Below are positions 3,049 through 36,498 of a stretch of DNA of 64,000 bases, piece by piece. The translations under genes and the position numbers were made by a program. The notes under the pieces were generated by a model. It had not been told where the DNA came from and ran no database searches. It was given only the letters and a program-made list of their open reading frames with translations. Within the stretch, counting starts at the first letter, position 1, and every line of letters begins with the position of its first letter. Origin of the DNA: Artemia franciscana (taxonomy: Eukaryota; Arthropoda; Branchiopoda; Anostraca; Artemiidae); contig NC_088867.1 in the NCBI RefSeq assembly GCF_032884065.1, positions 1 to 64,000 of the forward strand, written 5' to 3'.

Positions 3049-3050
3049 AG

Positions 3051-3787: not shown

Positions 3788-3811
3788 ATTTGGCCTGATT
3801 TGAATAGATAA
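3051..3811 (+). pseudogene. YqaJ-like nuclease fragment, inverted duplicate
   Basis: An 85-codon frame (3077-3334) reads GLYLEVVALEAYDNKF, later AVSVEGFLPNGKPIEIKT. The layout resembles the core of YqaJ-like PD-(D/E)XK exonucleases, where A-S-P-D-G and a later E-I-K supply catalytic residues. Here the D position appears as E (SVEG) while EIK is kept. After a break, about 3335-3560 reads a block with NHRYFARIHGQLEIL and DDWEIITVHRSKEYW, as expected downstream in the same family. A further frame (3572-3811) ends in DFEEIIWPDLNR and may be the C-terminus after a frameshift. No start or promoter is visible. The piece lacks the N-terminal half found at 780-1452, so it is called a fragment. Confidence 0.55.
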
Positions 3812-5176: not shown

Positions 5177-6586
5177 ACTGGATTAAACTTAACGCAAAAA
5201 CATGCAAACTAATTATATTTTTGTCAAAGGGTTTGCAATAAAATGGTTTGCTATCGAATAGATACCAGCAGTGGCGTTATTAAGATTCTTAGGATCTGTT
5301 TCAAAAATTGAGCAGGAACAAAAAAGATGATTAGCCTTAAGATGAAAAATATCCTAATTTTGTGCATATAGCTACCTAATTTGATTGTCCCGTTTGAAGG
5401 TTCATCTTTTAGCCTAATGATTCGAAACTAGAATAGAGATTTACACATAATACAAAGGCAAAAAAAAACACCACAGCTTCTTTAACTTATCTTAGGCTGC
5501 AGCTAAGCAAAAGACATCATTAAAAATGTGCAACTTATAAAATTTCAAGAAAATCGTTTGACACTACAATCCTTCAAAATCTTCAGCCATCATTATGCAT
5601 TATTTCTTTCTTCATTCGTTCTGTCCAGTAATCTTTTAGGATCTTTTTGAATCCCAATTTCCTGAAAATAATGTCATTAATTAATTCCCCAGAATCAAAT
5701 TTTCTGGCGACTTGGCATCCACAAACCTTGATTAGCGGTTTAATATTCTTCTGATTCTATATTTGGGCTAACAAGTAGTATTTTCTCTGCTGCTTACATG
5801 AAAACTATTTAAATAATAAAGTTCATTTGAGCCCCAGTGAAAAGACTTTTTCAAGAAAAAATGATTATAATGAAAGTAGAGTGAAAAAAATCACATGAAC
5901 AGAACCAATTGCTCCTTAGCCCATGCAAAAAATCTATAACTAGCTCAAACAAATTAACCACTGAAGTTTTCATATGCTTGTACTTAGGCAAAGACAGAAC
6001 TTAAAAGGAAACCCAAACCTTCTCCCCCAAAATATACATTTTATTTTACTAAAAGTTTCTTAAGTAACCCTTAGACAAAAAGACTAAACCGTAAAATTAT
6101 AATCTAAGTGTTCCCTTTATTGTTTTTTTTTTTCGACTAAGATGTATTTTGGCTTAAGGGTATATAGACAGAAATTATCATAAACCAGACTATCGTTTCT
6201 ATTCCTTTTAAAGTAAAATACAAATAATTTGAAATTTAGGAAAGTATAATCTAGGAGAAGCAGTAAGGACTGTCGCATTCTGAGATGATATAATGTCAGA
6301 GTAAAGTTAAACATTAACGAATTAACAAAATAAAATGTTTTTTTCTATAGTCATTTTTTATTATCTTTCTACCGAAGTTCCTTCATCAAAATGTTTTAAT
6401 ACTGTTTCATATATTTCCCTAATATTATGCTGATCTTTCTGAGGAGAACGGGGGGGGGGTCAAAAGTACACTGATGTGACATTGACAGAGAAAGGTAGCG
6501 TAACTCAATAACCGTTTTGTAGCCGCTTATCTTTGCTGTAAAATTGGGTTTAATCAACTAATCTTTGTTTCACGTTTTCCTACGAA

Positions 6587-8740
6587 AACAAGAGATAAGA
6601 GCTCATATGGCACTTGTGACGAGGCGAGAAGAGCTAAGAGCCAAGAGATCATATGGTATGAGCTCTAACAAAATTCTACGAATCAATAGATTGATTCATA
6701 TATTGCTGCATCCCGATTCCTACTCTCCTCCAAAAGTGTTTTTCCAAGATTTCCCCCTCCAACTCCCCCTAATGTCAAACGATCTGGCCGGGATTTGAAA
6801 CAAGAGCTCTGAGACATTAATTCTTTCTAAAAATCAAATTTCATTAAGATCCGATCATCGTAAGATAAAAATACCCCAATTTTCACGTTTTCAGAGAACT
6901 CCGGTTTCCCCCTCCAACTCCCCCCAACATCACAGGATCTGGTTGGAATTTAAAATAAAAACTTTAAAGCACAAGATCCTTCTAAATATCAAATTTCATT
7001 AAGATCTATTCACCCTTTCTTAAGTTACAAATACCTCAATTTTCAAAATTACCCCCCTCCAATTCCACCAAAGAGAGCATATCCGGTCTGGTTATGTCAG
7101 TCACGTATCTTAGACAGGTTTTTATTCTTCCATCCAGTTTCATCCTGATCTCACCGCTTAAGCATTTTCTAAGCTTTGCGCCCCCCCCCCCCAACTGCAC
7201 TCCCCAATTATGCTTGATCCGGTTGAGATTTAAAATAAGAGATCTGAGTTACGTGGTACTTCTAATATGAAGTTTCATGAAGATCCGATCACTCCTCCGT
7301 AAGTTAAAAATACGTCATTTTTTTCTTATTTTTCAGAATTAACCCCCCCCCCCCCAATAGATTGGATCCTTTCCAATTATTTGAATCACGTATTTAAGAC
7401 TTCTGCTTATTTTTCCCACCAGGTTTCATCCCGATCCCTCCAATCTAAGCGTTTTCTATGATTTTAGGTTCCCCCACCCCAAACTCCCCCAACATCACCA
7501 GATCAGTCAGTATTTAAAATAAGAGCTTTGAGACACGATATCCTTCTAAATGTCGAATCTCATTGAGATCCGATAACCCGTTCGTAAGTTAAAAATACAT
7601 CATTATTTCTAATTTTTCAGAATTAACCCCTCCCCCAACTACCCCAAGGAGAGCGGAACCATTCCGGTTATGTCAATCATGTATCTAGGACTCGTGATTA
7701 TTTTTTCCACCAAGTATCATCCCAATCCCTCCACTCTATGTTTTTTTCAAGTTTTAGGTTTCCCCCCTCCCAACTACCCCCCCCCCCCCAATGTCACCAG
7801 ATCTGGGTCTAATTTAAAAAAAGAGCTCTGAGCCACGATATTCTTCTAAATTTCAATTTCATTGAGATCTGATCACCTGTTCGTAAGTTAAAAATACCTC
7901 ATTTTTTCTAATTTTTCAGAACCCCCCCCCCCCCAACTATCCCAAAGAGAACGGATCCATTCCGTTTATGTCAATCATGTATCTAGCTCTTGTGTTTATT
8001 TTTCCCACCAAGTTTCATCCCGATCCCCTCCACTCCAAGTGTTTTCCAAGTTTTAGGTTTCCCCCTCAACTCCTCCACCCCCCCCCAACGTCACCAGATC
8101 CGGTCAGTCTTTAATATAAGAGCTCTAAGATACGAGATCTTTCTAAACATCAAATTTCATTGAGATCCGATCACCCGTTCGTAAGTTAAAATACCTCACT
8201 TTTTCTAATTTTTCAGAATTACCCCCCCCCCCCCAACTACCGCAAAGAGAACGGATCCGTTCCGATTATGTCAATCATGTATCTGGGACTTGTGCTTATT
8301 TTTTCCCATCAAGTTTCATCCCGATCCCTCCACTCCAAGTGTTTTCCAAGATTTTAGGTTTCCCCCCCTCCAACTCCCCCCAATGTCATCAGATCTGGTC
8401 AGGATTTAAAATAAGAGCTCTGAGACACAATATCATTCCAAACGTCAAATTTTATTAAGATTTCATCACCCATTCAAAAGTTAAAAATACTTCATTTTTT
8501 TCTATTTTTTCTGAAATAACCGGCCCCTCACTCCCCCCCCCCAGATGATCAAATTAAGAAAACGACTATTTTTTCATTTAAGCTGGTCCCGTCCCTGATA
8601 CGCCTGCCAAATTTCATTGTCCTAGCTTACCTGGAAATGCCTAAAGTAGCAAAACCGGGACCGACAGACAGACAGACCGACCGACAGAATTGGCGATTGC
8701 TATATGTTACTTGGTTAATACCAAGTGCCCATAAAAAAAT
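6587..8740 (+). mobile_element. Poly-C tandem-repeat element (copy in duplication A)
   Basis: The element begins with AACAAGAGATAAGAGCTCAT and the conserved GAAGAGCTAAGAGCCAAGAG block. It continues as repeats of about 270-300 bp and ends with a conserved tail (about 8655-8735): ACCGGGACCGACAGACAGAC, then GGCGATTGCTATATGTTACT and a short palindrome CTTGGTTAATACCAAG. Each monomer carries GATCCGATCACCC, GTAAGTTAAAAATAC, a poly-C run, GGATCC, and a TTTCATCCCGATCCCTCCA block. No protein is credible. The same head and tail recur at 18968-21107, in inverted form at 34013-35455, and the head at 63848, so it is a dispersed non-autonomous family. Its mobilising class is unknown. Confidence 0.7.
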
Positions 8741-9224
8741 GTATAGCATTATAAGAGTGGGGTTGACTCAACCTGAACCAAAGTGCTATATCTGATTTAA
8801 TCTTTAAGTACAAAGGACATCAAACTTAAAGTTTTTTTTTCTTCCCCGGTTCCATCTTAGGTCTAATCAGCCAGTTTCCTTGGCGGTTCCTTGGATCCCA
8901 AGCAGTATCCTTTGATCTCTTCTAATTGTTATTGACGGTTTTATTTGAGTTGTTATGACATTATCAAGGTTAGATCCCTGCTTAAAGCTTCCCCCAAACA
9001 TAGTGTTTGAAATTAAATTTTTTTTTTTTCATATGAAAGCATGAACTCTTCTGATGAAATTTTAGAGGATAGAATTGTCCAAGGGGAATTTTACGGGGGG
9101 GGGGGGTTGTGGTTTACATTAGAGAATTTTTCAATGACAAGTTTCCCATAAACAAAGTGCATTTTTCACGAAGGGAAAATCAGATTTACCAGAATTATTT
9201 AAAAAATAATCAGAAACTTAATAA
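8741..9224. other. Unassigned stretch after the poly-C element
   Basis: Nothing coding is recognised. A run of 10 or more G at about 9096-9107 differs in length from the matching run in copy B. A TTTACATTAGAGAATTTTTC block follows, which usually flanks the neighbouring foldback-related hairpin. Confidence 0.45.
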
Positions 9225-9512
9225 AAGTTTTTTCGACTGAAAGTAAGGAGCATCCCTAAACTGAAAACAGTGGGAAATTATTCCATATATGAGGGAGTTC
9301 GACTATTTGTCCCAAGTTTTAAGAGTGACTCCTGAAGCCCAAAGGGTATCTAATTAGAATAAAAAGCTCTTTCAAAAGGACTAAAAGCACTAGCATAAAT
9401 AGCAAGGTATCTAGGAGCAAGATAAAGAACAAAGTATGACCCCCCCCCCCTTATATGTGGAATAATTCCTGTTCGTTTTTACTTTTAATGCTGCTCCTAA
9501 TTTTCAATTGTT
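9225..9512. repeat. Diverged hairpin of the foldback family
   Basis: The left side (GACTGAAAGTAAGGAGCAT at about 9235) and the right side (GCTGCTCCTAATTTTCAATTG near 9490-9512) are related in inverted orientation. They match the ends of the hairpin at 15762-16015. The interior includes ATATGAGGGAGTTCG and ACTCCTGAAGCCCAAAGG, as in other family members. It is non-coding. Confidence 0.6.
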
Positions 9513-11050
9513 TTTTTTTATTATTTACACAAAAAGGAATGGACAGTTCATAGATTAAAAATAGGCACCAACTACAGATTGAACATTTGAATATGGCTAT
9601 GAATTGTACTTTTTCGACGACTAACTTTCAGAAATATGGTCAATTATGTGAACAATTTAGAGAGCCTTAGCTGGAATAATTATTTTCTCTTACAGCTAGG
9701 ATTGAAGCTGAATGAGTTCCGTACCTATTTCGTATATTTCATTAAATCTACTCAAATCGGGTTCATTTTCTTGTTTTATTTACTATGTTTTATGGCACAG
9801 ATAAAGGAATAGTATTAAAAGTACCTCTTGATGTCATAATTCCTTAATTTTTAAAGAAATTAGAGCTTATCAACGGCCCCTTTCATGACAGTAATATATA
9901 AAGTTGGTATACATTTCTTAAAGTCAAATTTTACTGAACATAACATATATACGTTTTTTAAACGTTAGTAATAACTCTTAAACATGGTAATATTAATTAA
10001 ATCCTATTCGAAATAATCATTAAGTAACACACGCTTTTGAAGCATCATGGGATCTTTTGTTTCATTGTATTAGTTAATTACCAGAAAAAGCTGGATAGAT
10101 AAGCTTAAAGTAAGCTCCTTAAAATAAAAAAGCCCTTAAAATAAAATTCTGACACATTAAAAAAAAGAACAAAGACTATATTAAGCCTGAAAACAAACAA
10201 AAATAAGCTGTGGATGGTTATTTAACTTAGAGTTGCTCGTACATAGATAACAAGAAATGAACTAGTTAAGCTGGGAATGTGAAGGAATTTTTATAGTTAG
10301 AACTAAGGAAAAAAAGTTATCCCCTGGTTTCTCTGACATTTCTTGTCTTCTCTAATTTTTAGCTAAAGCACCCTTTTAGGAGTGGTACCATGCAGTAGAT
10401 TTATATTTTTATATTGTCAGTGCTACAAAAAGAGGACGTGGCCTATCTGATGGCAACGTTCACCTCTAACTTCTCAGCAGAAAGCTAGGCAGTTACTTTC
10501 CACTAATTGGTTTAAAAAGTTAGAACATGGTAACGATCAGATTCTGATTTGAATTTGCCTCTAGGAAAAAAACTCTTTGACTTCGTGTGTGCAACCGAAT
10601 TCTTCTAGTCTTTTTTTGTTTGTTTTTTTTGTTTTTTTTAACAGCTTTTGTAGACTCGGGTTTCAAGTGTTTTATGAATTTCTATTTTTGTTTCGGAACG
10701 GTGTCTGTATTTCATGATAAAAAATACCGTCGGTACATACCCGTGAAAATTTCATGGCGCGAAGATAAAACGAAAATTCATTTATTAAGGCATTTGGTGA
10801 TTTTTAATCTGAAGCAAAACTACACATGATGACCATTTAACAGAGAGTTAGGTATATGTCAATCAAAATTGAATGGTCATAGAATACGAATCAGTAAGTG
10901 TCATATAATTCGAAACACTAGAACAGTATTAGTATTAAACACAAACTAATCATTTTTTAGCCCTAAAAATAAAAAGTAAAAAGCGAATAATATTGAAAAA
11001 TACTAGCAGTCTCCATTGCATCAACAGTTCGTGGCAACAAGCTGTAAGGA
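9513..11050. other. AT-rich stretch without recognised features
   Basis: No supported gene or element was found. An 80-codon plus-strand frame at 10587-10829 starts within a T-rich run (LFFLFFLTAF) and has no recognisable motif. It recurs in copy B with a frame change at its start, so it is not called. Confidence 0.5.
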
Positions 11051-11054
11051 CTGG

Positions 11055-11440
11055 GTGACCCGCTCAAGAGTTATCGAAATCCTAAAACACAAAAGATTTG
11101 ATAATAGCACATACTAACAAAAGAATCGAACATTCAAGTTGATTTCAAAAATATAAGGCTCATTAAGCTTAATGGTACCCATTAAAAGTTACGAGCCAGT
11201 GAAAACATGACCTATGTCTGAAAGAGGGAAAGCAACCAAAACAGGTGATCTAAATGGAAATCACACCATCATATTCAGCACATCAAATAACCCTATTTTC
11301 AAGTTTCAAGGTCCTATATACCAAAATGCGGAATTTAAAATTTTTACCACAAACAAAATCACGTATGTTTCTTGTGTTTGTTGTTTTTTTTTTCCAGGAG
11401 TGACCAAATCTGACACGGTGATCCTATAAGATTGGGAGAC
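11055..11440 (+). repeat. Diverged single arm of the large foldback element
   Basis: The order of blocks matches the left arm at 14995-15360: GACCCGCTCAAGAGTTATCG, then AAGTTGATTTCAAAAATATA, CCCATTAAAAGTTACGAGCC, a TCAGCACATCAAATAACCCT block, and a T-run with CCAGGAGTGACC. The 71-codon open frame across it is a by-product. It recurs at 23425-23813. Confidence 0.65.
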
Positions 11441-12279
11441 GGCTTACATACATTCGATGCAAAAAGAAAGAATTAAATTATTTTTTTGCACAATATACCT
11501 TACTTTTCCGCAAAGCGGTTTTAAATTATAAATAAACATGAACTTACCCTTGCACAAAGTAGAGTACTTTAGAAACACCGTTTGAAAGGCCATTTTTTGA
11601 GCACATCTCAACATTTTGACTCTTGACTAGCTAAATTTTGCTTCAAATTTGACATCTCTCAATCCAAAACAGATTCTTTTTCTCAAATAGCCACATTTTC
11701 ATGAAAAATGAAAAAGATGAGTTTCCTTATAATTTTTTGATGCGATAAAATAATATTATTGAGTATTAAGCCTGTGATTTCGTAGTTTTCCTCCTATAGA
11801 AATTATAAATTTTACTTTTGAAATATTCTATAATGATTGAAACAAGCAAGCACGGCAACATTAAACATGGCACTGAGATTAGTGAAAGAAGGTGTGGTAC
11901 ATTAATCGAGTTCTAAAGTGTCTGGTAATGGTATGTCTTTCTCGTTCAAACAGTAAATTTGGAATAAATCAATGTATTATGCTCTTGTGTCTTTTGCGGT
12001 TTTGGCCTAGCGGTCCCTTGAACCCTTCTTGAAATAATATTATTGAATTGTAATCAAGTAGGTGTGGGCATCTAGCCATGGCTAATTGAAGAAAAAGCTA
12101 AGACAAATAGTCCGATAGAGTGAGGGACAAATCTTACATGAGCCCTTACTAGGATTGTATAAAAATGATGTCAGTTCATTTGTTTTAGTTAGAAGTGGGC
12201 TAAAATTTACCGGCAACTGCATATTCATAAATTTCATTTGTGGGTTTGGTCAATCTGTCAGATGAACCTGTGGCCTAGA
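11441..12279. other. AT-rich stretch without recognised features
   Basis: No gene is supported. Stops are dense on both strands and no known element boundary is seen. The segment is repeated in copy B (about 23814-24649). Confidence 0.45.
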
Positions 12280-12754
12280 CAATATTTATGGCGCTTGGGT
12301 CGGTTACAGCTCGGCCAAGGGGTTATCCGACTGCTCCGAGTGTGGTATTTCTATTGTGTTTGAGAAAGTCTTGTGGTTGCAAACAATTTTTGCTCAGAGC
12401 AGAAAAGACCCTTCCTTGGCCCATTAGCGTCACTCGACCAACCTCGTCGAAAGCAGATCGACCAAGGGGTGTTCTGACTGCTCCGACAAAACAAACAATT
12501 CTGTCACAACAAAATCAGTTTCTATCATAAGATATCGAATCATGTTACATGCGTCTTTGGATATCATGCTTTTTCTGGCCAAAGAAAAGGCGTCGTTTAC
12601 CTGCCTCTGACTTCTTGGAACATTTGTCTGCAGCTCATTCACAGTCTTTTGTTGTTATGTTTTTTGTCTTGTTTTTTCTTTTTGTGTGTGTTTACCTCCA
12701 CAGTTTAATGTACTTTGTGGGTTATAAATAAATTATTATTATTATTATTATTAT
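12280..12754 (+). mobile_element. Retroposon 3' end with (ATT)n tail
   Basis: The segment ends GGGTTATAAATAAATTATT followed by a short (ATT)n run at about 12731-12754, a typical microsatellite-like 3' end of CR1/L2/RTE-type LINEs or SINEs mobilised by them. The preceding 450 bp has an internal near-repeat (GGCCAAGGGGTTATCCGACT near 12313 and GACCAAGGGGTGTTCTGACT near 12460). No reverse transcriptase is present, so it is a 5'-truncated LINE end or a SINE. Confidence 0.5.
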
Positions 12755-14096
12755 GTCTTACTAAACTCCCCATGAAAATATTCTCGGGGCGTCATTATTG
12801 TGGTCTTTGCTATTGTTTTTGCTCTTATTAATACAGATTTCTCAGAAGGCACAAATGGGGTGGTTTTTACTCCTTCTTTCTTTTTATGGTTTCCATGGGG
12901 GTCACAAATTGACTTTCTGTCACAAGTACCAACATAATGAATAACCGTGTATAGGCAGTGCTCAGGTGGACAGTTGAATACGCAGGGCTCATATCGAAAG
13001 ATATATATCTTCAAATCAACCGTCTTGCCTTCATCAGCCGTTGATTATCTCTCTTTCTGAAGTTTGGATGAACAGAGGGTACAGTTACCGAGTGTCACCC
13101 AATAGTACTGCTATAACAGTAACCATCGGCCTTGTAGTCTTGTATGCGTTCAATACTATCTGAATATACTAAAGAAATACTACCTGCAGCAGGATAGGAC
13201 GAAACAGTGTTTTTTCACAGTTTAAACCTTGATATAGCAGTTTCGTGAGCGGTCTTCAAGATTATGGCAGTCTCAGTAGATTTAAGTGCCGATTTCTTGG
13301 TTTCGTAAACATGTAGATCCACTGGTTTACAAAGTGATGTCCCACGTGTTTCCTGAATAACACTCGGTCGATCCTTTTGAAAATTTTGTACTTTTTTGGA
13401 CAAACTGCTATATTTCATGGCTTCGTTAAGATGTGGGTCCACTGGATTACAAAGTGATGCGCCATGATTTACCTGAATAACACTTGGTCGATCCTTTTGA
13501 AAATCTTCTTCTTTTTTGGACAAAAGAGAAACATTCAAAAAAGACTTATTAAGAGTCGATTTATTTTTTTCAGACTATGTACTATAAATCTGTGCTTCGT
13601 AAGAGTCCAGGTCTTTGTCTTTACATAATTCATTGGCTGTGTACACCGTTTTGTTAACGTTACTTCTTTGTTGTGGGGTCATTTTATCATTGTTTTCATT
13701 ATAGACGTCATTAACCTGGAACTCATTTTCTTCTTCCAGCTCAAAATATTCCAGCATACTCTCTTGGAGGTCAACCTTTTCCATATCCTTGCACTCCTTA
13801 ATTTCCATGCACTCTTTGTACTTCATGCCTAGCTTATCATTTTCAAAATTCCCTTCGATATCAATCTTTTCTAACACCTTTGCTTCAAAGTGCGTTTGGA
13901 AACCATCCTCGTTGATTTCATCTCCCTGTTGTCCACCTTCTTCCCTGGATTTGCAAATAGTACTTACCATTTCGTACTCATATTCTGTCGAATACTCCTG
14001 GTTACTTCTTTGAACCTTGATTTTTTCTTGTATTTCTTTGTATTTGTTAATGAACTTTTTACCACGAGAGCCTCTTTTCCTCGTTTTTTTTACCCA
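12751..14096 (-). pseudogene. Unknown protein frame with amber codon (copy A)
   Basis: On the minus strand a single frame is open from 14096 to 13539 apart from one TAG at 13575-13577. It then runs to a TGA at 13215-13217, where copy B has TGC (Cys). The product would start with a basic segment (KKTRKRGSRGKKFINKYKEI), followed by a Glu/Asp-rich region (MEKVDLQESMLEYFELEEEN). After the TAG comes an internal tandem repeat of about 41 residues, marked twice by FQKDRPSVIQ and SLCNPVDPH/SLCKPVDLH. Another frame further on (13014-12751) reads a Cys-rich RYEPCVFNCPPEHCLYTV segment. I recognise no family. A GTAAGT donor-like site follows ATG near 13965, so spliced exons are an alternative. It is called pseudogene because of the in-frame stops. 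Confidence 0.45.
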
Positions 14097-14994
14097 TCAT
14101 CGAAAGAGAACTTATAAGTGAAACTAAAAAGAAATATATTTGATTGTTTCGAAAACTATATCCACAGTTCTTTTAAAGGGGATCCAAAATTAAATGAGTA
14201 AACCATTACTGGAAATTACTTGGATGTCAAATCCCCCTAAAAAGGGGGGCTAAAACTGCTTCTTGTTCAATGGCTTACTAAAGTCTCCTTACATATATCT
14301 CACAGCTTACCAATAGGACCTAATCTCTTAGTAAATTTGAATTTGTAAAACAATCGTCGAGTGCTATAAGGCACCTAAAAGCTCACGTATGATACCTGCA
14401 AAAATTGTCGAAGCTGAAATAATTTCTGCATTCCAAGTGGTATAAATTTTGGACTAAGAACTTAAACAAGAATTTTCCCCAAAATGTTGAAATATCTATT
14501 TGAGCCGCTGTCAGAGAACAAGATAACTTTGTCTATTTGAGACTCAGCTCTTTCAATCTAACATTAGTTTGAGTCAGAAATACCTCTGGTGTAAGACCAC
14601 GTTGATGGAGATCTAAATTCGACAAGCCCCTGACGACTGCGTATCAGGATAAATATAATGAAATTTTACAAATGTTATAGGAAGCTTGGTTCAGAGGAAA
14701 ATTTACTAATGCTTCATTTTCCGTTAAAAAAGAGCTAGTGACTCACATCAAACGGGTCCGTTGGTTTGCAATGCCCGAGGGAGCAGCAAAAGCATTAAAT
14801 TTGTCGAATAAACACTCGATGTTCTGAAGAACGTGGGTAATAACAATTTTCATCCAAACACTGATTCTTAGTTTTTAAAATTTTTACCAATTCTTTTAAA
14901 TTCAGGAAAACGTTTATTCTTAACGTATCTTAACGTTAATACTATACTATACTTAACGTATAGTATCTGTTACTGGGAAGAATGTATACATTTT
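14097..14994. other. AT-rich stretch, short TA palindromes near its end
   Basis: No gene is recognised. Near 14925-14975 the words TTAACGTATCTTAACGTTAA and ACTATACTTAACGTATAGTA form short palindromes just left of the large foldback element. Similar words occur inside that element at about 15560-15600. Confidence 0.45.
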
Positions 14995-17414
14995 GACCCG
15001 GCTCAATAGTAACCAAAACTCTAAAAAATTAGATTTTGATATCAATAGCCACATCAAAAGAATCGCATTTTAATGTTGATTTCAAATATATAAGTTTCAT
15101 CAAGTTTAGTTTTACCAATCAAAAGTTAAGAGCCTGAGAAAATTTGCCTTATTTAAGAAAATAGGGGGAAACCCCCCCTAAAAATCTTAGCGAAAATGAC
15201 ACCATCAGATTCAGCGTATCAGAGAGCCCTACTGTAGAAGTTTCAAGCTCCTATCTACAAAAATGTGGAATTTTGTTTTTTTTTTCCAGAAGACAAATCA
15301 CGGGTGCGCGTTTTTTTTTTTCAGGGGTCATCGTATCGACAAAGTGGTCCTAGAATGTCGCAAGAGGGCTCATTCTAACGGAAATGAAAAGTTCTAGTTC
15401 CCTTTTTAAGTGACCAAAAAAATTGGAGGGCACCTAGGCCCCCTCCCACGCTCATTTTTTCTCCAAAGTCAACGGATCAAAATTTTGAGATAGCCATTTT
15501 GTTTACCATAGTCGAAAACATAATAACTATGTCTTTGGGGATGACTTATAGTATCTGTTACGTATACGTATAGTTTATACTATACTTAACGTATATGTAG
15601 TAATGCTATACCCCTCATATATGTAGTAAAAATATGAGATTAAAAAAGTTCGTTACGTAAGCTAATTTATAAGTTACGTTTATCTTTTACTAACAAAAAC
15701 ATTCGTAAAAAATTTAAAGCTTTAGGTGCCTTTTTACGTAACTACATAAAAAAAACTAGTTTTTTTTAACTGAAAGTAAGGAGCGACAATAAAACTTAAA
15801 ACGAACAGAAATTACTCCAGATATGAAATGGGCTGTCCCCTCTGCAATCCCTCGCTAATTACGCTAAAGCTTTTAATTGTTTTAAAAAGCAGAATTGTGG
15901 CAAAGAGTCAAATTTAGCGTAAAGAGCGAGGGATTGCGGAAGGGACAACCCATTTCATATACGGAGTAATTTCTGTTCGTTTTAATGTCGCTCCTTACTT
16001 TCAGTTAAAAAAAATAGTTTTTTTTTATATAATTTCTGAACGTTTTTGAATTAATGCATGTTTGATTTTGGCTCTCTAAACATAAATTATTAAAATAAAG
16101 TTTACATATTAATTCCTTTTTGGCTAAATGGCTTTCTCTTAGTTTTGATCAGACGATTTTGAGAAATAAGGGATGGGGAAGGATGCCTAGTTGCGATGCA
16201 ATTTTTTGGTTACATAAAAGGGCAACTATAAATTTTAATTTTTAACGAATTTTTTTATTAGTAAAAAATATACGTAACTTAAGAATTAACTTACGTAACA
16301 AACTTTTATATTCTTAAATTTTTATTATGTATATGAGGGGATTTGTACTCTCCTTAATACCTCGTTCTTTACACTAAATCGTAAGTTTTGTCCCAATTCT
16401 TTAAGAATGACCCCTGAATCAGAAAGGCCGTAGAATAAATAGTTGAAATTACTAAAAATACTATAGCATAAAGAGCGAGGTATTTATCTCCTCCTCAATA
16501 CCTCGCTCTTTATGCTAAAATATATTTAGAACCCCTCATATGCGTAATAATCTCTGTTCGTTTTAAGTTTCAATGTTACTCCTTACTTTCAATTGAAAAA
16601 ACTTTTCCATGTTATTTTTTCATTGTTTTTTTTTATAGTAATTTTAGAAAATCCTGCACCCTTTTCATGAATTTCTTTTCCCCCATAACATTTTTCTCCA
16701 AGGAAAGATCCTCCCACATAGCCCCCTCCCCTCAGCCCCACCCCCCAAACCAAAAAAAAATCCCCTGAAAACGTCTGTACACTTCCCAATTACCATTATT
16801 ATATGTAAACACTGGTCGAAGTTTGTAACTTGCAGCCCCTACCCCAGGGACTGTGAGGGAGTAAATCATTCCCAAATACATAGTTATAATGATTTTGGAC
16901 TATGCAGAACAAAATGGCTATCTCAAATTTTGATCCGTTGACTTTGGAGAAAAAATGAGCGTGGGAGGGGGCCTAGGTGCCCTCTAATTTTTTCGGTCAC
17001 TTAAAAAGGGCACTAGAACTTTTCATTTTCGTTAGAATGAGCCCTCTTGCGACATTCTAGGACCACTTTGTCGATACGATGACCCCTGGAAAAAAAAACG
17101 CGTACCCGTGATTTGTCTTCTGGGAAAAAAAAAACGAAATTCCACATTTTTGTAGATAGGAGCTTGAAACTTCTACAGTAGGGCTCCCTGATACGCTGAA
17201 TCTGATGGTGTCATTTTCGCTAAGATTTTTAGGGGGTGTTTCCCCCTATTTTCTTAAATAAGGCAAATTTTCTCAGGCTCGTAACTTTTGATTGGTAAAA
17301 CTAAACTTGATGAAACTTATATATTTGAAATCAGCATTAAATCCGATTCTTTTGATGTGGCTATTGATATCAAAATTTAATTTCTTAGAGTTTTGGTTAC
17401 TATTGAGCCGGGTC
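14995..17414. mobile_element. Foldback element with ~0.55-kb inverted ends (copy A)
   Basis: The left end GACCCGGCTCAATAGTAACC (14995) is matched in inverted orientation by the right end, GGTTACTATTGAGCCGGGTC (to 17414). The arms are complementary for about 0.55 kb (14995-15545 and about 16870-17414). The centre holds two further palindromes at 15762-16015 and about 16340-16600. Sequence outside the right end (TACAGTTCGTTAGCACGAACTG) is itself a small hairpin and also follows other members. No transposase is seen. Loose or partial members occur at 9225, 11055, 30673 and 32715. It fits foldback or MITE-like non-autonomous DNA elements. Confidence 0.75.
15762..16015. repeat. Nested ~250-bp hairpin within the foldback element
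   Basis: TTTAACTGAAAGTAAGGAGC on the left pairs with GCTCCTTACTTTCAGTTAAA on the right. Both arms continue with AACGAACAGAAATTACTCC and the ATATGAAATGGG block. The core reads CTCGCTAATTACGCTAAAGC against a complementary GCGTAAAGAGCGAGGGATTG. This hairpin is the most repeated unit of the family in the window. Confidence 0.8.
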
Positions 17415-17448
17415 GTTCCTTACTACAGTTCGTTAGCACGAACTGTTT

Positions 17449-17555
17449 GATACCAGACAAATACATTTAGGTGATCAGTGCTGTGTACGAGAATAACACT
17501 GCGCGGTTAAGGTAGGAAATGAGGTTTGTAGCTGGTTGCATTTTAAAGAAGGAGG
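17449..17555 (+). pseudogene. LINE reverse-transcriptase fragment cut at the duplication junction
   Basis: About 100 nt starting ATACCAGACAAATACATTTA match the RT gene at about 42648-42760, ending at TTTTAAAGAAGGAG where copy A stops. The reading continues only after copy B (29820-30552). The duplication breakpoint therefore lies inside this RT frame. Confidence 0.8.
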
Positions 17556-18967: not shown

Positions 18968-21107
18968 AACAAGAGATAAGAGCTCATATGGCACTTGTGA
19001 CGAGGCGAGAAGAGCTAAGAGCCAAGAGATCATATGGTATGAGCTCTAACAAAATTCTACGAATCAATAGATTGATTCATATATTGCTTCATCCCGATTC
19101 CTACTCTCCTCCAAAAGTGTTTTTCCAAGATTTCCCCCTCCAACTCCCCTAATGTCAAACGATCTGGTCGGATTTGAAATAAGAGCTCTGAGACATTAAT
19201 TCTTTCTAAAAATCAAATTTCATTAAGATCCGATCATCGTAAGATAAAATACCCCAATTTTCACATTTTCAGAGAACTCCGGTTTCCCCTCCAACTCCCC
19301 CAACATCACAGGATCTGGTTGGAATTTAAAATAAAAACTTCAAAGCACAAGATCCTTCTAAATATCAAATTTCATTAAATCTGTTCACCCTTTCTTAAGT
19401 TACAAATACCTCAATTTTCAAATTACCCCCCCTCCAATTCCACCAAAGAGAGCATATCCGGTCCGGTTATGTCAGTCACGTATCTTAGACAGGTTTTTAT
19501 TCTTCCCATCCAGTTTCATCCTGATCTCACCGCTTTAAGCATTTTCTAAGCTTTGCGCCCCCCCCCCCAACTGCACTCCCCAATTATGCTTGATCCGGTT
19601 GAGATTTAAAATAAGAGATCTGAGTTACGTGGTACTTCTAAATATGAAGTTTCATGAAGATCCGATCACTCCTCCGTAAGTTAAAAATACGTCATTTTTT
19701 CTTATTTTCAGAATTACCCCCCCCCCCAATAGATTGGATCCTTTCCAATTATTTGAATCACGTATTTAAGACTTCTGCTTATTTTTCCCACCAGGTTTCA
19801 TCCCGATCCCTCCAATCTAAGCGTTTTCTATGATTTTAGGTTCCCCCACCCCAAACTTCCCCCAACATCACCAGATCCAGTCAGTATTTAAAATAAGAGC
19901 TTTGAGACACGATATCCTTCTAAATGTCGAATCTCATTGAGATCCGATAACCCGTTCGTAAGTTAAAAATACATCATTATTCTAATTTTTCAGAATTAAC
20001 CCCTCCCCCAACTACCCCAAGGAGAGCGGAACCTTTCCGGTTATGTCAATCATGTATCTAGGACTCGTGATTATTTTTTCCACCAAGTATCATCCCGATC
20101 CCTCCACTCTATGATTTTTTCAAGTTTTAGGTTTCCCCCTCCCAACTACCCCCCCCCCCAATGTCACCAGATCTGGTCTAATTTAAAAAAAGAGCTCTGA
20201 GCCACGATATTCTTCTAAATTTCAATTTCATTGAGATCTGATCACCTGTTCGTAAGTTAAAAATACCTCATTTTTTCTAATTTTTCAGAACCCCCCCCCC
20301 AACTATCCCAAAGAGAACGGATCCATTCCGTTTATGTCAATCATGTATCTAGCTCTTGTGTTTATTTTTCCCACCAAGTTTCATCCCGATCCCTCCACTC
20401 CAAGTGTTTTCCAAGTTTTAGGTTTCCCCCTCAACTCCCCCCCCCCCCAACGTCACCAGATCCGGTCAGTCTTTAATATAAGAGCTCTAAGATACGAGAT
20501 CTTTCTAAACATCAAATTTCATTGAGATCCGATCACCCGTTCGTAAGTTAAAATACCTCACTTTTTCTAATTTTTCAGAATTACCCCCCCCCCCCCCCAA
20601 CTACCGCAAAGAGAACGGATCCGTTCCGATTATGTCAATCATGTATCTGGGACTTGTGCTTATTTTCCCATCAAGTTTCATCCCGTTCCCTCCACTCTAA
20701 GTGTTTTCCAAGATTTAGGTTTCCCCCCCTCCAACTCCCCCCAATGTCATCAGATCTGGTCAGGATTTAAATAAGAGCTCTGAGACACAATATCATTCCC
20801 AACATCAAATTTTATTAAGATTTCATCACCCATTCAAAAGTTAAAAATACTTCATTTTTTCTATTTTTTCTGAAATAACTGGCCCCTCACTCCCCCCCCC
20901 CAGATGGTCAAATTAAGAAAACGACTATTTTTCATTTAAGCTGGTCCCGTCCCTGATACGCCTGCCAATTTCATTGTCCTAGCTTACCTGGAAATGCCTA
21001 AAGTAGCAAAACCGGGACCGACAGACAGACAGACCGACAGACAGACCGACCGACAGAATTGGCGATTGCTATATGTCACTTGGTTAATACCAAGTGCAAT
21101 AAAAAAT
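18968..21107 (+). mobile_element. Poly-C tandem-repeat element (copy in duplication B)
   Basis: It has the same head (AACAAGAGATAAGAGCTCAT), the same ~295-bp monomers and the same GACAGAC-rich tail with the CTTGGTTAATACCAAG palindrome as the copy at 6587-8740. The GACAGAC/GACCGAC tract at about 21017-21055 is longer than in copy A, and many C-runs differ in length. Open frames here (for example 20334-20525) lie within the repeat and are not genes. Confidence 0.7.
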
Positions 21108-21599
21108 GTATAGCATTATAAGAGTGGGGTTGACTCAACCTGAAACCAAAGTTCTATATCTGATTTAATCTTTAAGTACAAAGGACATCAAACTTAAAGT
21201 TTTTTTTTTCTTCCCCGGTTCCATCTTAGGTCTAATCAGCCAGTTTCCTTGGCGGTTCCTTGGATCCCAAGCAGTATCCTTTGGTCTCTTCTAATTGTTA
21301 TTTACGGTTTTATTTGAGTTGTTATGACATTATCAAGGTTAGATCCCTGCTTAAAGCTTCCCCAAACATAGTGTTTGAAATTAAATTATTTTTTTTCATA
21401 TGAAAGCATGAACTCTTCTGATGAAATTTTAAGAGGATAGAATTGTTCAAGGGGAATTTTACGGGGGGGGGGGGGGTTGTGGTTTACATTAGAGAATTTT
21501 TCAATGACAAGTTTCCCATAAACAAAGTGCATTTTTCACGAAGGGAAAATCAGATTTACCAGAATTATTTAAAAAATAATCAGAAACTTATAAAAGTTT

Positions 21600-21890
21600 T
21601 TTCTACTGAAAGAAAGGAGCATCCCTAAAACTGAAAACAGTGGGAAATTATTCCATATATGAGGGAGTTCGACTATTTGTCCCAAGTTTTAAGAGTGACT
21701 CCTGAAGCCCAAAGGGTATCTAATTAGAATAAAAAGCTCTTTCAAAAGGACTAAAAGCACTAGCATAAATAGCAAGGTATCTAGGAGCAAGATAAAGAGC
21801 AAAGTATGACCCCTCCCCCTTATATGTGGAATAATTCCTGTTCGTTTTTACTTTTAATACTGCTCCTAATTTTCAATTGTTTTTTTTTTA
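21600..21890. repeat. Diverged foldback-family hairpin (copy B)
   Basis: It is the counterpart of 9225-9512, with TACTGAAAGAAAGGAGCAT at the left and GCTCCTAATTTTCAATTG at the right. The poly-C stretch inside is interrupted here (CCCCTCCCCC) where copy A has an uninterrupted C-run. Confidence 0.6.
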
Positions 21891-23424
21891 TTATTTACAC
21901 AAAAAGGAATGGACAGTTCATAGATTAAAAATAGGCACCAACTACAGATTGAACATTTGAATATGGCTATGAATTGTACTTTTTCGACGACTAACTTTCA
22001 GAAATATGGTCAATTATGTGAACAATTTAGAGAGCCTTAGCTGGAATAATTATTTTCTCTTACAGCTAGGATTGAAGCTGAATGAGTTCCGTACCTATTT
22101 CGTATATTTCATTAAATCTACTCAAATCGGGTTCATTTTCTTGTTTTATTTACTATGTTTTATGGCACAGATAAAGGAATAGTATTAAAAGTACCTCTTG
22201 ATGTCATAATTCCTTCATTTTTAAAGAAATTAGAGCTTATCAAAGGCCCCTTTCATGACAGTAATATTATAAAGTTGGTATACATTTCTTAAAGTCAAAT
22301 TTTACTGAACATAACATATATACGTTTTTTAAACGTTAGTAAATAACTCTTAACATGGTAATATTAATTAAATCCTATTCGAAATAATCATTAAGTTAAC
22401 ACACGCTTTTGAAAGCATCATGGGATCTTTTGTTTCATTGTATTAGTTAATTACCAAGAAAAAGCTGGATAGATAATGCTTAAAGTAAGCTCCTTAAAAT
22501 AAAAAAGCCCTTAAAATAAAATTCTGACACATTAAAAAAAGAACAAAGACTATATTAAGCCTGAAAACAAACAAAAATAAGCTGTGGATGGTTATTTAAC
22601 TTAGAGTTGCTCGTAGATAGATAACAAGAAATGAACTAGTTAAGCTGGGAATGTGAAGGAATTTCTATAGTTAGAACTAAGGAAAAAAGTTATCCCCTGG
22701 TTTCTCTGACATTCCTTGTCTTCTAATTTTTAGCTGAAGCACCCTTTTAGGAGTGGTACCATGCAGTAGATTTATATTTTTATATTGTCAGTGCTACAAA
22801 AAGAGGACGTGGCCTATCTGATGGCAACGTTCACCTCTAACTTCTCAGCAGAAAGCTAGGCAGTTACTTTCACTAATTGGTTTAAAAGTTAGAACATGGT
22901 AACGATCAGATTCTGATTTGAATTTGCCTCCAGGAAAAAAAACTCTTTGACTTCGTGTGTGCAACCGAATTCTTCTAGTCTTTTTTTGTTTCTTTTTTTG
23001 TTTTTTTTAACAGCTTTTGTAGACTCGGGTTTCAAGTGTTTTATGAATTTCTATTTTTTGTTTCGGAACGTGTCTGTATTTCATGATAAAAAATACCGTC
23101 GGTACATACCCGTGAAAATTTCATGGCACGAAGATAAAACGAAAATTCATTTATTAAGGCATTTGGTGATTTTTAATCTGAAGCAAAACTACACATGATG
23201 ACCATTTAACAGAGAGTTAGGTATAATGTCAATCAAAATTGAATGGTCATAGAATACGAATCAATAAGTGTCATATAATTCGAAACACTAGAACAGTATT
23301 AGTATTAAACACAAACTAATCATTTTTTAGCCCTAAGAATATAAAGTAAAAAGCGAATAATATTGAAAAATACTAGCAGTCTCCATTGCATCAAACAATT
23401 CGTGGCAACAAGCTATAAGGACTG
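21891..23424. other. AT-rich stretch without recognised features (copy B)
   Basis: This is the counterpart of 9513-11050 in copy A. No supported gene or element was found. Confidence 0.45.
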
Positions 23425-23813
23425 GGTGACCCGGCTCAAGAGTAATCGAAATCCTAAAACACAAAAGATTTGATAATAGCACATACTACAAAAGAATCGA
23501 ACATTCAAGTTGATTTCAAAAATATAAAGCTCATTAAGCTTAATGGTACCCATTAAAAGTTACGAGCCAGTGAAAACATGACCTATGTCTGAAAGAGGGG
23601 AAGCAACCAAAACAGGTGATCTAAATGGAAATCACACCCTCATATTCAGCACATCAAATAACCCTATTTTCAAGTTTCAAGGTCCTATATACCAAAATGC
23701 GGAATTTAAAATTTTTACCACAAACAAAATCACGTATGTTTCTTGTGTTTGTTGTTTTTTTTTTCCAGGAGTGACCAAATCTGACACGGTGATCCTATAA
23801 GATTGGGAGACGG
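23425..23813 (+). repeat. Diverged foldback arm (copy B)
   Basis: Counterpart of 11055-11440, beginning GACCCGGCTCAAGAGTAATC. It is closer to the intact terminus (GACCCGGCTCAATAGTAACC) than copy A, which has lost one G. Confidence 0.65.
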
Positions 23814-24649
23814 CTTACATACATTCGATGCAAAAAGAAAGAATTAAATTATTTTTTTGCACAATATACCTTACTTCTCCGCAAAGCGGTTTTAAATTAT
23901 AAATAAACATGGACTTACCCTTGTACAAAGTAGAGTACTTTAGAATCTCCATTTGAAAGGCCATTGTTTGAGCACATCTCAACATTTTGACTCTTGACTA
24001 GCTAAATTTTGCTTCAAATTTGACATCTCTCAATCCAAAATAGATTCTTTTTCTCAAATAGCCACATTTTCATGAAAAATGAAAAAGATGAGTTTCCTTA
24101 TAATTTTTTGATGCGATAAAATAATATTATTGAGTATTAAGCCTGTAATTTCGTAGTTTCCTCCTATAGAAATTATAAATTTTACTTTTGAAATATTCTA
24201 TGACGATTGAAACAAGCAAGCACGGCAACATAAAACATGGCACTGAGATTAGTGAAAGAAGGTGTGCTACATTAATCGAGTTCTAAAGTGTCTGGTAATG
24301 GTATGTCTTTCTCGTTCAAACAGTAAATTTGGAATAAATCAATGTATTATGCTCTTGTGTCTTTTGCGGTTTTGGCCTAGCGGTCCCTTGAACCCTTCTT
24401 GAAATAATATTATTGAATTGTAATCAAGTAGGTGTGGGCATCTAGCCATGGCTAATTGAAGAAAAAGCTAAGACAAATAGTCCGATAGAGTGAGGGACAA
24501 ATCTTACATGAGCCCTTACTAGGATTGTATAAAAATGATGTCAGTTCATTTGTTTTAGTTAGAAGTGGGCTAAAATTTACCGGCAACTGCATATTCATAA
24601 ATTTCATTTGTGGGTTTGGTCAATCTGTCAGATGAACCTGTGGCCTAGA

Positions 24650-25120
24650 CAATATTTATGGCGCTTGGGTCGGTTACAGCTCGACCAAGGGGTTATCCGA
24701 CTGCTCCGAGTGTGGTATTTCTATTGTGTTTGAGAAAGTCTTGTGGGTGCAAACAATTTTTGCTCAGAGCAGAAAAGACCCTTTCTTGGCCCATTAGCGT
24801 CACTCGACCAACCTCGTCGAAAGCAGATCGACCAAGGGGTGTTCTGACTGCTCCGACAAAACAACCAATTCTGTCACAACAAAATCAGTTTCTATCATAA
24901 GATATCGAATCATGTTACATGCGTCTTTCGATATCATGCTTTTTCTGGCCAAAGAAAAGGCGTCGTTTACCTGCCTCTGACTTCTTGGAACATTTGTCTG
25001 CAGCTCATTCACAGTCTTTTGTTGTTATGTTTTTTGTCTTGTTTTTTCTTTTTGTGTGTGTTTACTCCACAGTTTAATGTACTTTGTGGGTTATAAATAA
25101 ATTATTATTATTATTATTAT
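24650..25120 (+). mobile_element. Retroposon 3' end with (ATT)n tail (copy B)
   Basis: Counterpart of 12280-12754, with a shorter (ATT)n tail at about 25101-25120. It carries the same internal near-repeat. Confidence 0.5.
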
Positions 25121-26462
25121 GTCTTACTAAACTCCCCATGAAAATATTCTCGGGGCGTCATTATTGTGGTCTTTGCTATTGTTTTTGCTCTTATTAATAC
25201 AGATTTCTCAGAAGGCACAAATGGGGTGGTTTTTACTCCTTCTTTCTTTTTATGGTTTCCATGGGGGTCACAAATTGATTTTCTGTCACAAGTACCAACG
25301 TAATGAATAACCGTATATAGGCAGTGCTCAGGTGGACAGTTGAATACGCAGGGCTCATATCGAAAGATATATCTCTTCAAATCAACCGTCTTGCCTTCAT
25401 CAGCCGTTGATTATCTCTCTTTCTGAAGTTTGGATGAACAGAGGGTACAGTTACCGAGTGTCCCCCAATAGTACTGCTATAACGGTAACCATCGGCCTTA
25501 TAGTCTTGTATGCGTTCAATACTATCTGAATATAATAAAGAAATACTACCTGCAGCAGGATAGGACGAAACAGTGTTTTTGCACAGTTTAAACCTTGATA
25601 TAGCAGTTTCGTGAGCGGTCTTCAAGATTATGGCAGTCTCAGTAGATTTAAGTGCCGATTTCTTGGTTTCGTAAACATGTAGATCCACTGGTTTACAAAG
25701 TGATGTCCCTCGTGTTTCCTGAATAACACTTGGTCGATCCTTTTGAAAATTTTGTACTTTTTCGGACAAACTGCTATATTTCATGGCTTCGTTAAGATGT
25801 GGGTCCACTGGATTACAAAGTGATGCGCCATGATTAACCTGAATAACACTTGGTCGATCCTTTTGAAAATCTTCTTCTTTTTTGGACAAAAGAGAAACAT
25901 TCAAAAAAGACTTATTAAGAGTCGATTTATTTTTTTCAGACTATGTACTATAAATCTGTGCTTCGTAAGAGTCCAGGTCTTTGTCTTTACATAATTCATT
26001 GGCTGTGTACACCGTTTTGTTAACGTTACTTCTTTTTTGTGGGGTCATTTTATCATTGTTTTCATTATAGACGTTATTAACCTGGAACTCATTTTCTTCT
26101 TCCAGCTCAAAATATTCCAGCATACTCTCTTGGAGGTCAACCTTTTCCATATCCTTGCAATCCTTAATTTCCATGCACTCTTTGTACTTCATGCCCAGCT
26201 TATCATTTTCAAAATTCCCTTCGATATCAATCTTTTCTAACACCTTTGCTTCAAAGTGCGTTTGGAAACCATCCTCGTTGATTTCATCTCCCTGTTGTCC
26301 ACCTTCTTCCCTGGATTTGCAAATAGTACTTACCATTTCGTACTCATATTCTGTCGAATACTCCTGGTTACTTCTTTGAACCTTGATTTTTTCTTGTATT
26401 TCTTTGTATTTGTTAATGAACTTTTTACCACGAGAGCCTCTTTTCCTCGTTTTTTTTACCCA
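25117..26462 (-). pseudogene. Unknown protein frame with one amber codon (copy B)
   Basis: This is the better preserved copy. From 26462 to 25377 the minus strand is open for 362 codons, interrupted only by a TAG at 25941-25943. ATG codons lie at 26336 (before the TAG) and 25904 (after it). The order of regions is: basic N-terminal segment; acidic region with LEYFELEEENEFQV; the TAG; then two tandem copies of about 41 residues sharing FQKDRPSVIQ and SLC(N/K)PVD; then a Ser/Tyr-rich stretch (AAGSISLLYSDSIERI) and a basic tail ending RLMKARRLI. A second, overlapping frame (25380-25117) has a Cys-rich start and ends REYFHGEFSKT. I know no family for it. A degraded gene, a stop-readthrough product, or exons misread across introns are all possible. 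A TTTCTTTTTAG acceptor-like site lies near 26490 and a GTAAGT after ATG near 26333. Confidence 0.5.
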
Positions 26463-27360
26463 TCATCGAAAGAGAACTTATAAGTGAAACTAAAAAGAAA
26501 TATATTTGATTGTTTTGAAAACTATATCCACAGTTCTTTTAAAGGGGATCCAAAGTTAAATGAGTAAACCATTACTGGAAATTACTTGGATGTCAAATCC
26601 CCCTAAAAAGGGGGGCTAAAACTGCTTTTCTTTCAATGGCTTACTGAAGTCTCCTTACATATATCTCACAGCTTACCAATAAAACCTAATCTCTTTGTAA
26701 ATTTGAATTTATAAACAATCGTCAAGTGCTATAAGGCACCTAAAAGCTCACGTATGATACCTGCAAAAATTGTCGAAGCTGAAATAATTTCTGCATTCCA
26801 AGTGGTATAAATTTTGGACTAAGAACTTAAACAAGAATTTTCCCCAAAATGTTGAAATATCTATTTGAGCCGCTGTCAGAGAACAAGATAACTTTGTCTA
26901 TTTGAGACTCAGCTCTTTCAATCTAACATTAGTTTGAGTCAGAAATACCTCTGGTGTAAGACCACGTTGATGGAGATCTAAATTCGACAAGCCCCTGACG
27001 ACTGCGTATCAGGATAAATATAGTGAAATTTTACAAATGTTATAGGAAGCTTGGTTCAGAGGAAAATTTACTAATGCTTCATTTTCCTTCAAAAAAGAGA
27101 TAGTGACTCACATCAAAAGGGTCCGTTGGCTTGCAATGCCCGAGGGAGCAGCAAAAGCATTAAATTTGTCGAATAAACACTCGATGTTCTGAAGAACGTG
27201 TGTAATAACAGTTTTCATCCAAACACTGATTCTTAGTTTTTAAAATTTTTACCAATTCTTTTAAATTCAGGATAAACGTTTATTCTTAACGTATCTTAAC
27301 GTTAATACTATACTATACTTAACGTATAGTATCTGTTACTGGGAAGAATGTATACATTTT
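26463..27360. other. AT-rich stretch without recognised features (copy B)
   Basis: Counterpart of 14097-14994. It ends with the same short TA-rich palindromes before the foldback element. Confidence 0.45.
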
Positions 27361-29785
27361 GACCCGGCTCAATAGTAACCAAAACTCTAAAAAATTAGAT
27401 TTTGATATCAATAGCCACATCAAAAGAATTGCATTTTAATGCTGATTTCAAATATATAAGTTTCATCAAGTTTAGTTTTACCAATCAAAAGTTACGAGCC
27501 TGAGAAAATTTGCCTTATTTAAGAAAATAGGGGGAAACACCCCCTAAAAATCTTAGCGAAAATGACACCATCAGATTCAGCGTATCAGAGAGCCCTACTG
27601 TAGAAGTTTCAAGCTCCTATCTACAAAAATGTGGAATTTTGTTTTTTTTTCCCAGAAGACAAATCACGGGTGCGCGTTTTTTTTTTTTCAGGGGTCATCG
27701 TATCGACAAAGTGGTCCTAGAATGTCGCAAGAGGGCTCATTCTAACGGAAATGAAAAGTTCTAGTGCCCTTTTTAAGTGACCAAAAAAATTGGAGGGCAC
27801 TTAGGCCCCCTCCCACGCTCATTTTTTCTCCAAAGTCAACGGATCAAAATTTTGAGATAGCCATTTTGTTCAGCATAGTCGAAAACCATAATAACTATGT
27901 CTTTGGGGATGACTTATAGTATCTGTTACGTATACGTATAGTTAATACTATACTTAACGTATATGTAGTAATACTATACCCCTCATATATGTAGTAAAAA
28001 TATGAGATTAAAAAAGTTCGTTACATAAGCTAATTTATAAGTTACGTTTATCTTTTACTAACAAAAACATTCGTAAAAAATTTAAAGCTTTAGTTGCCTT
28101 TTTACGTAACTACATAAAAAAAACTAGTTTTTTTTAACTGAAAGTAAGGAGCGACAATAAAACTTAAAACGAACAGAAATTACTCCGTATATGAAATGGG
28201 TTGTCCCCTCTGCAATCCCTCGCTAATTACGCTAAAGCTTTTAATTGTTTTAAAAAGCAGAATTGTGGCAAAGAGTCAAATTTTAGCGTAAAGAGCGAGG
28301 GATTGCGGAAGGGACAACCCATTTCATATACGGAGTAATTTCTGTTCGTTTTAATGTCGCTCCTTACTTTCAGTTAAAAAAAATGGTTTTTTTTATATAA
28401 TTTCTGAACGTTTTTGAATTAATGCATGTTTGATTTTGGCTCTCTACACATAAATTATTAAAATAAAGTTTACATATTAATTCCTTTTTTGGCTAAATGG
28501 CTTTCTCTTAGTTTTGATCAGACGATTTTGAGAAATAAGGGATGGGGAAGGATGCCTAGTTGCGATGCAATTTTTTGGTTACATAAAAAGGCAACTATAA
28601 ATTTTAATTTTTAACGAATTTTTTTTTTAGTAAAAAATATACGTAACTTAAGAATTAACTTACGTAACAAACTTTTATATTCTTAAATTTTTATTATGTA
28701 TATGAGGGGATTTGTACTCTCCTTAATACCTCGTTCTTTACACTAAATCGTAAGTTTTGTCCCAATTCTTTAAGAATGACCCCTGAATCAGAAAGGCCGT
28801 AGAATAAATAGTTGAAATTACTAAAAATACTATAGCATAAAGAGCGAGGTATTTATCTCCTCCTCAATACCTCGCTCTTTATGCTAAAATATATTTAGAA
28901 CCCCTCATATGCGTAATAATCTCTGTTCGTTTTAAGTTTCAATGTTACTCCTTACTTTCAATTGAAAAAACTTTTCCATGTTTATTTTTTCATTGTTTTT
29001 TTATAGTAATTTTAGAAAATCCTACGCCCTTTTCATTGAATTTCTTTTCCCCCATAACATATTTCTCCAAGGAAAGATCCTCCCACATAGCCCCCTCCCC
29101 TCAGCCCCACCCCCCAAACCAAAAAAAATCCCCTGAAAACGTCTGTACACTTCCCAATTACCATTATTATATGTGAACACTGGTCGAAGTTTGTAACTTG
29201 CAGCCCCTCCCCCAGGGACTGTGAGGGAGTAAATCATTCCCAAATACATAGTTATAATGATTTCGGACTATGCAGAACAAAATGGCTATCTCAAAATTTT
29301 GATCCGTTGACTTTGGAGAAAAAATGAGCGTGGGAGGGGGCCTATGTGCCCTCCAATTTTTTTGGTCACTTAAAAAGGACACTAGAACTTTTCATTTCCG
29401 TTAGAATGAGCCCTCTTGCGACATTCTAGGACCACTTTGTCGATACGATGACCCCTGGAAAAAAAAAACGCGCACCCGTGATTTGTCTTCTGGGAAAAAA
29501 AAAACGAAATTCCACATTTTTGTAGATAGGAGCTTGAAACTTCTACAGTAGGGCTCCCTGATACGCTGAATCTGATGGTGTCATTTTCGCTAAGATTATT
29601 AGGGGGTGTTTCCCCCTATTTTCTTAAATAAGACAAATTTTCTCAGGCTCGTAACTTTTGATTGGTAAAACTAAACTTGATGAAACTTATATATTTGAAA
29701 TCAGCATTAAAATGCGATTCTTTTGATGTGGCTATTGATATCAAAATTTAATTTTTTAGAGTTTTGGTTACTATTGAGCCGGGTC
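27361..29785. mobile_element. Foldback element with ~0.55-kb inverted ends (copy B)
   Basis: GACCCGGCTCAATAGTAACC at 27361 pairs with GGTTACTATTGAGCCGGGTC ending at 29785. The nested hairpin lies at 28128-28383 and a second one at about 28700-28985. It lies immediately upstream of the LINE fragment that starts at 29820. Open frames on the minus strand at 29022-29382 come from the arm and are not genes. Confidence 0.75.
28128..28383. repeat. Nested ~250-bp hairpin (copy B)
   Basis: Same structure as 15762-16015. The left arm here reads TTACTCCGTATATGAAATGG, matching the right arm better than in copy A (TTACTCCAGATATGAAATGG). Confidence 0.8.
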
Positions 29786-29819
29786 GCTCCTTACTACAGT
29801 TCGTTACCACGAACTGTTT

Positions 29820-30552
29820 GATACCAGACAAATACATTTAGGTGATCAGTGCTGTGTACGAGAATAACACTGCGCGGTTAAGGTAGGAAATGAGGTTTGT
29901 AGCTGGTTGCATTTTAAAGAAGGAGTTCAGCAGGGTTGTGTTCTTTCCCCATTTATATGGATCATTTTGATGGACTTTGTCTTAAGGAGCGCAGCAAAGG
30001 CAATGGGAAAACATGGAGTCAAATGGGGAAGAAAAACTTTCCTGTATTTAGATTATGCTGATGATTTCAGCATCCTAAATGAAAGTGTGGGCAAAATGAA
30101 TGAACTCTTAGAGGTTACAAGTTCAGGGAGCTTGAATAGGTTTGAAAATTAATGTTAAGAAGACTAAGTCACTAAGGCAAGGATTAAATGAAGATGGAAA
30201 AATGACGCTGGGTAACGAAAAGACTGATGAGGTGGACAGCTTCACTTACCTTAATAGTATTAATAGAAAAGACGATGGGAGTAGTGAAGATATTAAAAAT
30301 AGAATAGCCAACACTAAGGGTGTTTTTTCACAGTTGAAAAAAGTTTAGAAGGATAGAAAGATAATCTGCCAATCAGGAATAGAATACTTGAAGATACAGG
30401 GATGACAGTGCTCAAATATGGTTCCAAAACATGGGCGCTCCGAAAGGCAGATGAAGATTTGCTAGGTGTTTTCCAGAGTAATTTCCTACGGATTGTTCTG
30501 GGTACACGGCTGACTGACCGTATTTCAAATAGTAGGCTGTTAAAGTGTAGTT
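29820..30552 (+). pseudogene. RTE-like LINE reverse-transcriptase fragment
   Basis: The translation shows the RT motifs VQQGCVLSPFIWIILMDF (from about 29925) and LYLDYADDFSILNES (about 30045-30090). The YADD aspartate pair is the RT catalytic site. Further on come INVKKTKSLRQG, a DSFTYLNSI block and KYGSKTWALRKADEDLLGVF. It is closely related to the LINE at 42255-43678. The 5' part is missing (abuts the foldback element) and the 3' end stops at an AT microsatellite after about 30552. Two frame changes (near 30145 and 30348) make it inactive. Confidence 0.8.
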
Positions 30553-30554
30553 TG

Positions 30555-30672
<118 letters not shown>

Positions 30673-36478: not shown

Positions 36479-36498
36479 GTTTATGTCGTTTTATTTCT

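Follow-up and report, generated by a model that had tools for sequence, protein, structure and literature searches.

A probable 12.4-kb tandem duplication, or a similarly shaped assembly artefact, amid transposon debris at a scaffold start

The first 64,000 bases of contig C5 (60.9 Mb, from an assembly of 1.27 Gb in 6,468 contigs), hereafter "the window", contain a 12.4-kb unit that is present twice, in direct orientation, collinear and adjacent. The two copies are separated by a single novel join, have continuous outer edges and both carry private substitutions. We consider a real ~12.4-kb tandem duplication by end joining the most likely reading, and a reasonably probable one. In sum, the window shows either a tandem duplication of an ordinary kind or an assembly artefact that looks like one, amid transposon remains; as the unit consists of such remains, we propose no function for it. 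The features referred to below are, in window coordinates:

~3802 to 5340, no strand: TE-L, a dispersed repeat containing the left edge; its last ~160 bp lie within the duplicated unit
5152 to 17554, plus strand: copy A; the matching block starts at 5177, the putative true start being ACTAAA at ~5152
17555 to 17567, plus strand: the novel join, i.e., one extra G, then ACTAAACTAAAC
17556 to 29925, plus strand: copy B, matching from 17568 onwards; we interpret 17556–17567 as the beginning of the unit itself, after which ~22 bp were lost
5337 to 34013, no strand: element E, here a truncated and internally deleted copy; E is large and dispersed, and its window copy is broken up by the duplication and the reverse transcriptase fragment
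12754 to 14096 in copy A, minus strand: three gene-like open pieces, part of E, with counterparts in copy B at 25120–26462
29823 to 30557, plus strand: LINE-type reverse transcriptase fragment, whose first 103 bp equal the last 103 bp of copy A (17452–17554)

In the window, 5177–17554 and 17568–29925 form a single direct BLAST match (97.8% identity, 149 mismatches, 100 gap openings), and a collinear match of 12.4 kb far exceeds a chance origin. A gap-tolerant alignment yielded 142 substitutions over 12,301 aligned bases, i.e., 1.15% divergence, comprising 87 transitions and 55 transversions spread across the unit, together with 105 indels, 91 of them of one base. Both comparisons bear out the two collinear, nearly identical head-to-tail copies that the initial annotation had described. 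MAFFT returned 193 substitutions and 85 indels for the same pair; it renders some shifts between the copies as runs of mismatches, and we prefer the count of 142. The further proposal that differences are concentrated in homopolymer lengths stands for indels (57 of the 85 in the MAFFT alignment fall in homopolymers) but not for the 142 substitutions, and much of the indel excess looks like local consensus error (see below).

We next consider the outer edges. For a query covering 5060–5310, the best 40 of 213 candidates include the window itself and copy B, and base 5177 is traversed in all 38 other genome copies listed. A transposon terminus at the left edge, suggested by a query over the join (17450–17700), most of whose listed matches start there, is ruled out by these copies running through 5177. 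At the right edge the sequence belongs to a LINE-type reverse transcriptase: an RVT_1 match (E 8.7e-9) within 29868–30149 has matched residues spanning 29925, in agreement with the earlier observation of a reverse transcriptase frame cut at the right breakpoint and continuing only past copy B. Since the left edge is continuous in the other listed copies and the RVT_1 match is continuous over the right edge, the left side of copy A and the right side of copy B both look ancestral, and the join appears to be the sole novelty. None of the 39 other rows obtained with 17450–17700 (best 40 of 1,711 candidates scored) crosses the join, this query including, at the right-edge side, no more than the final 105 bp of copy A. 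With one novel join and two ancestral-looking outer edges, the suggestion of a tandem duplication whose ends share little homology is supported.

A read-free aid in telling consensus error from true divergence is to determine, at every difference, whether A or B disagrees with copies elsewhere in the genome. We assigned differences in this way over 9,284 bp of the unit, in ten regions, with two to five outgroup copies in four regions and one in the other six. Private substitutions were nearly even, as would favour a real duplication, with 75 in A, 77 in B and 2 undecided, although in the first region the B-private count of 17 is inflated by shifts turned into mismatch runs. Private indels (38 in A, 31 in B) were patchy: B carried 27 and A 16 in the three regions of 5337–8739, A carried 14 and B 1 in the two regions of 9932–11129, only 2 (A) and 1 (B) occurred in the four regions of 11129–14921, and 6 (A) and 2 (B) in 16021–17451. 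Calls in the satellite part are shaky, as 2 of 15 indels scored with two different outgroups switched sides; this and the single outgroup copy in six of the ten regions count against a real duplication. The indel excess stops sharply near 11.13 kb, within one repeat family and with no biological reason seen, and because of this step much of it is probably uncorrected consensus error. The partly complementary pattern suggests polishing in which reads could be assigned to one or the other of a near-identical pair. A consensus that is poor only in copy A is ruled out by the indel-rich patches in B. A first, cruder vote tended the same way: among 164 substitution groups, the derived state fell to A in 20 and to B in 13, with one tie and 130 groups lacking an outgroup.

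The strongest alternative, which we regard as clearly less probable than a real duplication, is that A and B are two alleles of one 12.4-kb stretch, which a chimeric read, an erroneous graph path or gap filling close to the scaffold start placed one after the other. The divergence of 1.15% is allele-sized and equally compatible with alleles, the join lies close to the scaffold start, and private-indel-rich patches occur in both copies. Moreover, the unplaced contig C4521 equals C4416 over 3,000 of 3,000 bases and C630 over 1,500 of 1,500 bases, from base 1 in each case (L050, L051, L052), so that the assembly is not redundancy-free. Against this, the window consists only of A, C, G and T, i.e., there is no N and no assembly gap at the join; the ends of the unit share no overlap usable by an assembler; and the sequence is clean on either side of the join. 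A real duplication is further favored by A and B being identical in the 195 aligned columns at the beginning of the unit and the 118 at its end, by the position of the earliest B-private indel of 5337–6591, ~620 bp into B, and by small losses that differ between the start of A and the start of B. Among the matches listed, and A and B apart, none surpasses 95% over the edges, nor 96% over the greater part of the dispersed-stretch query; we counted both results as neutral between a real and a false duplication.

In the available text of Ko et al. (PMC9516828), false duplications are marked by gaps between the copies, and further by half read depth, discordant pairs and single-copy k-mers. As in the heterotype duplications described there, the copies analyzed here are adjacent and near-identical, lie on one scaffold and show allele-sized divergence, whereas no gap separates A and B. 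If the duplication is false, it warns that a haplotype artefact at a scaffold start may show a join with no gap and clean-looking sequence, and go unnoticed by the customary gap criterion. If it is real, another decayed transposon region has been duplicated via homology-free joining, with no single-copy gene found in it.

For a real duplication, the sequence suggests the following course. The segment copied would have run from the interior of TE-L (~5152) through the left part of the decayed large transposon E to 103 bp into the reverse transcriptase fragment, and end joining that used no homology would have linked the copies head to tail, adding one base. Afterwards, A and B would each have acquired their own substitutions and small deletions, with ~22 bp of a T-rich tract lost near the start of B and ~9 other bases lost at the matching place in A. 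We infer the existence of the join in the DNA, the order of these events and the end-joining route.

The join itself comprises 13 bases (17555–17567), which the initial annotation had reported as about 12 unmatched bases. This does not hold as stated: 12 of the 13, ACTAAACTAAAC, match ACTAAATAAAC of TE-L family copies, which ends ~15–25 bp outside the apparent edge in other TE-L copies. Among 29 TE-L copies tried, 25 could be anchored (those without an anchor being L017, L028, L029 and L037), and the best join-match score of 9.5 was reached in 20 of these 25, in 0.33% of background 60-bp stretches and in none of 2,000 shuffles; the 20 matching copies are kin, hence not 20 independent tests. 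Scores were below the best in L025, L026, L030, L031 and L042. Copy A's own flank matches the junction bases weakly, with a score of just 7.0 that 9.9% of the background attains, which counts against a real duplication. On the simplest reading, the unit starts with ACTAAA, at ~5152 in A and 17556 in B, and the residue at the join is one extra G, without evident microhomology.

A test for microhomology or templated insertion found the same 12 of 13 join bases matching nearby family sequence, which is explicable also as the unit's own start. Provided that the join is real, we think it less likely than not that these bases are a templated insertion from polymerase-theta-type end joining instead of the unit's start followed by the ~22-bp loss. 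A match no farther than a few tens of bases from the break, as found in 20 of the 25 anchored family copies, would fit such an insertion, and insertions of this kind are described at end-joining scars in the available text of PMC8654963; but the match has the order and orientation expected for the unit's own start, and the same tract in copy A lost different bases, i.e., losses do occur there. A foreign 13-bp filler is ruled out by the 12 bases matching TE-L family sequence.

The same source, as far as its available text goes, describes tandem duplications of ~100 bp to 10 kb in Caenorhabditis elegans helq-1 mutants and attributes them to end joining. A real duplication in the window would resemble these in its head-to-tail copies, one novel join, little or no homology and possible templated bases. 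It would differ in being old enough for 1.15% divergence and in a repair path that is inferred here, and its 12.4 kb slightly exceed the size range given for the mutant worms, which counts against it.

The unit includes the left part of element E. Blocks at 5337–6591, ~9.9–12.49 kb and 12.75–14.92 kb, together with a flank block at 31.1–34.0 kb, recur elsewhere in the same order, e.g., at C5:676–704 kb, C18:29.73–29.76 Mb and C15:12.71–12.74 Mb, with varying spacing. Position 5337 is the shared start base of 23 of the 42 listed rows. Compared with other copies, the one in the window is truncated on either side, and 5337 and 34013 are ruled out as the ends of E by other copies running past both places. 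There was no convincing inverted match between these two places, which are not E's true ends (best local score 11). A stretch at 33397–34100 matches C7:21723150–21723851 at 99%, spanning the place (34013) where the window copy of E stops. The open pieces at 12754–14096 have no Pfam match and differ between A and B by 7 synonymous and 5 nonsynonymous changes; a single-copy gene is ruled out there, as the stretch is dispersed and placed in E. No single-copy gene was found in the duplicated unit, the tested parts of which are dispersed repeats.

For an assignment of E to the MULEs we looked for a transposase domain, terminal inverted repeats and a ~9 bp target site duplication. In the relative of E at C5:0.69 Mb, minus-strand open pieces (L053, L054; C5:683500–703499) match the MULE transposase domain PF10551 (E 3.7e-6) just over the cut-off (27.7 bits vs 27.6), and give a weak Ulp1-like match (PF02902, E 0.055) below it. 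Such a domain would be a likeness to MULEs as described in the available text of PMC6446971, while the window copy differs from them in having no PF10551 part: the MULE part of the C5 relative has no match in the window at E <= 1e-20 over 150 bp. For E we found neither its own ends nor any inverted repeats or target duplication. Its recurring blocks span ~28 kb at C5:676–704 kb, vs 1.4–10.0 kb for arthropod MULEs in the available text of PMC13359780. It is a rather doubtful proposition, offered tentatively, that E represents a large MULE-type transposon not described before, ~28 kb or more in length, possibly with a Ulp1-like protease, and with ~147-bp tandem repeat arrays, dispersed at at least 20 genome places, the window showing one decayed, part-duplicated copy. 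Alternatively, E could be a nest of smaller elements that spread jointly.

Further features occur in the remainder of the window. At the scaffold start, an inverted repeat pairs 1–732 with 3050–3782 (96%, 16 substitutions, 10 indels), with a YqaJ-like match below the cut-off at 3050–3331, and the TTAGGG-type telomere repeat is absent from 1–64000 (two units, one mismatch allowed). A Helitron-type cluster at 43685–58804 includes a PIF1 helicase (48036–48872), a Helitron_like_N match (52054–52920) and direct repeats, e.g., 48742–50453 and 57094–58804 at 98%. An ankyrin-repeat open frame lies on the minus strand (Ank_2, E 5.1e-52; in the area of 35597–36490 and 36994–37755), and a second frame near it, similar in look, covers a ~99-bp tandem array. 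Finally, runs of the TA dinucleotide, 60–114 bp long, occur in five places: 30559–30672, 46893–46960, 56480–56593, 58970–59079 and 61333–61392.
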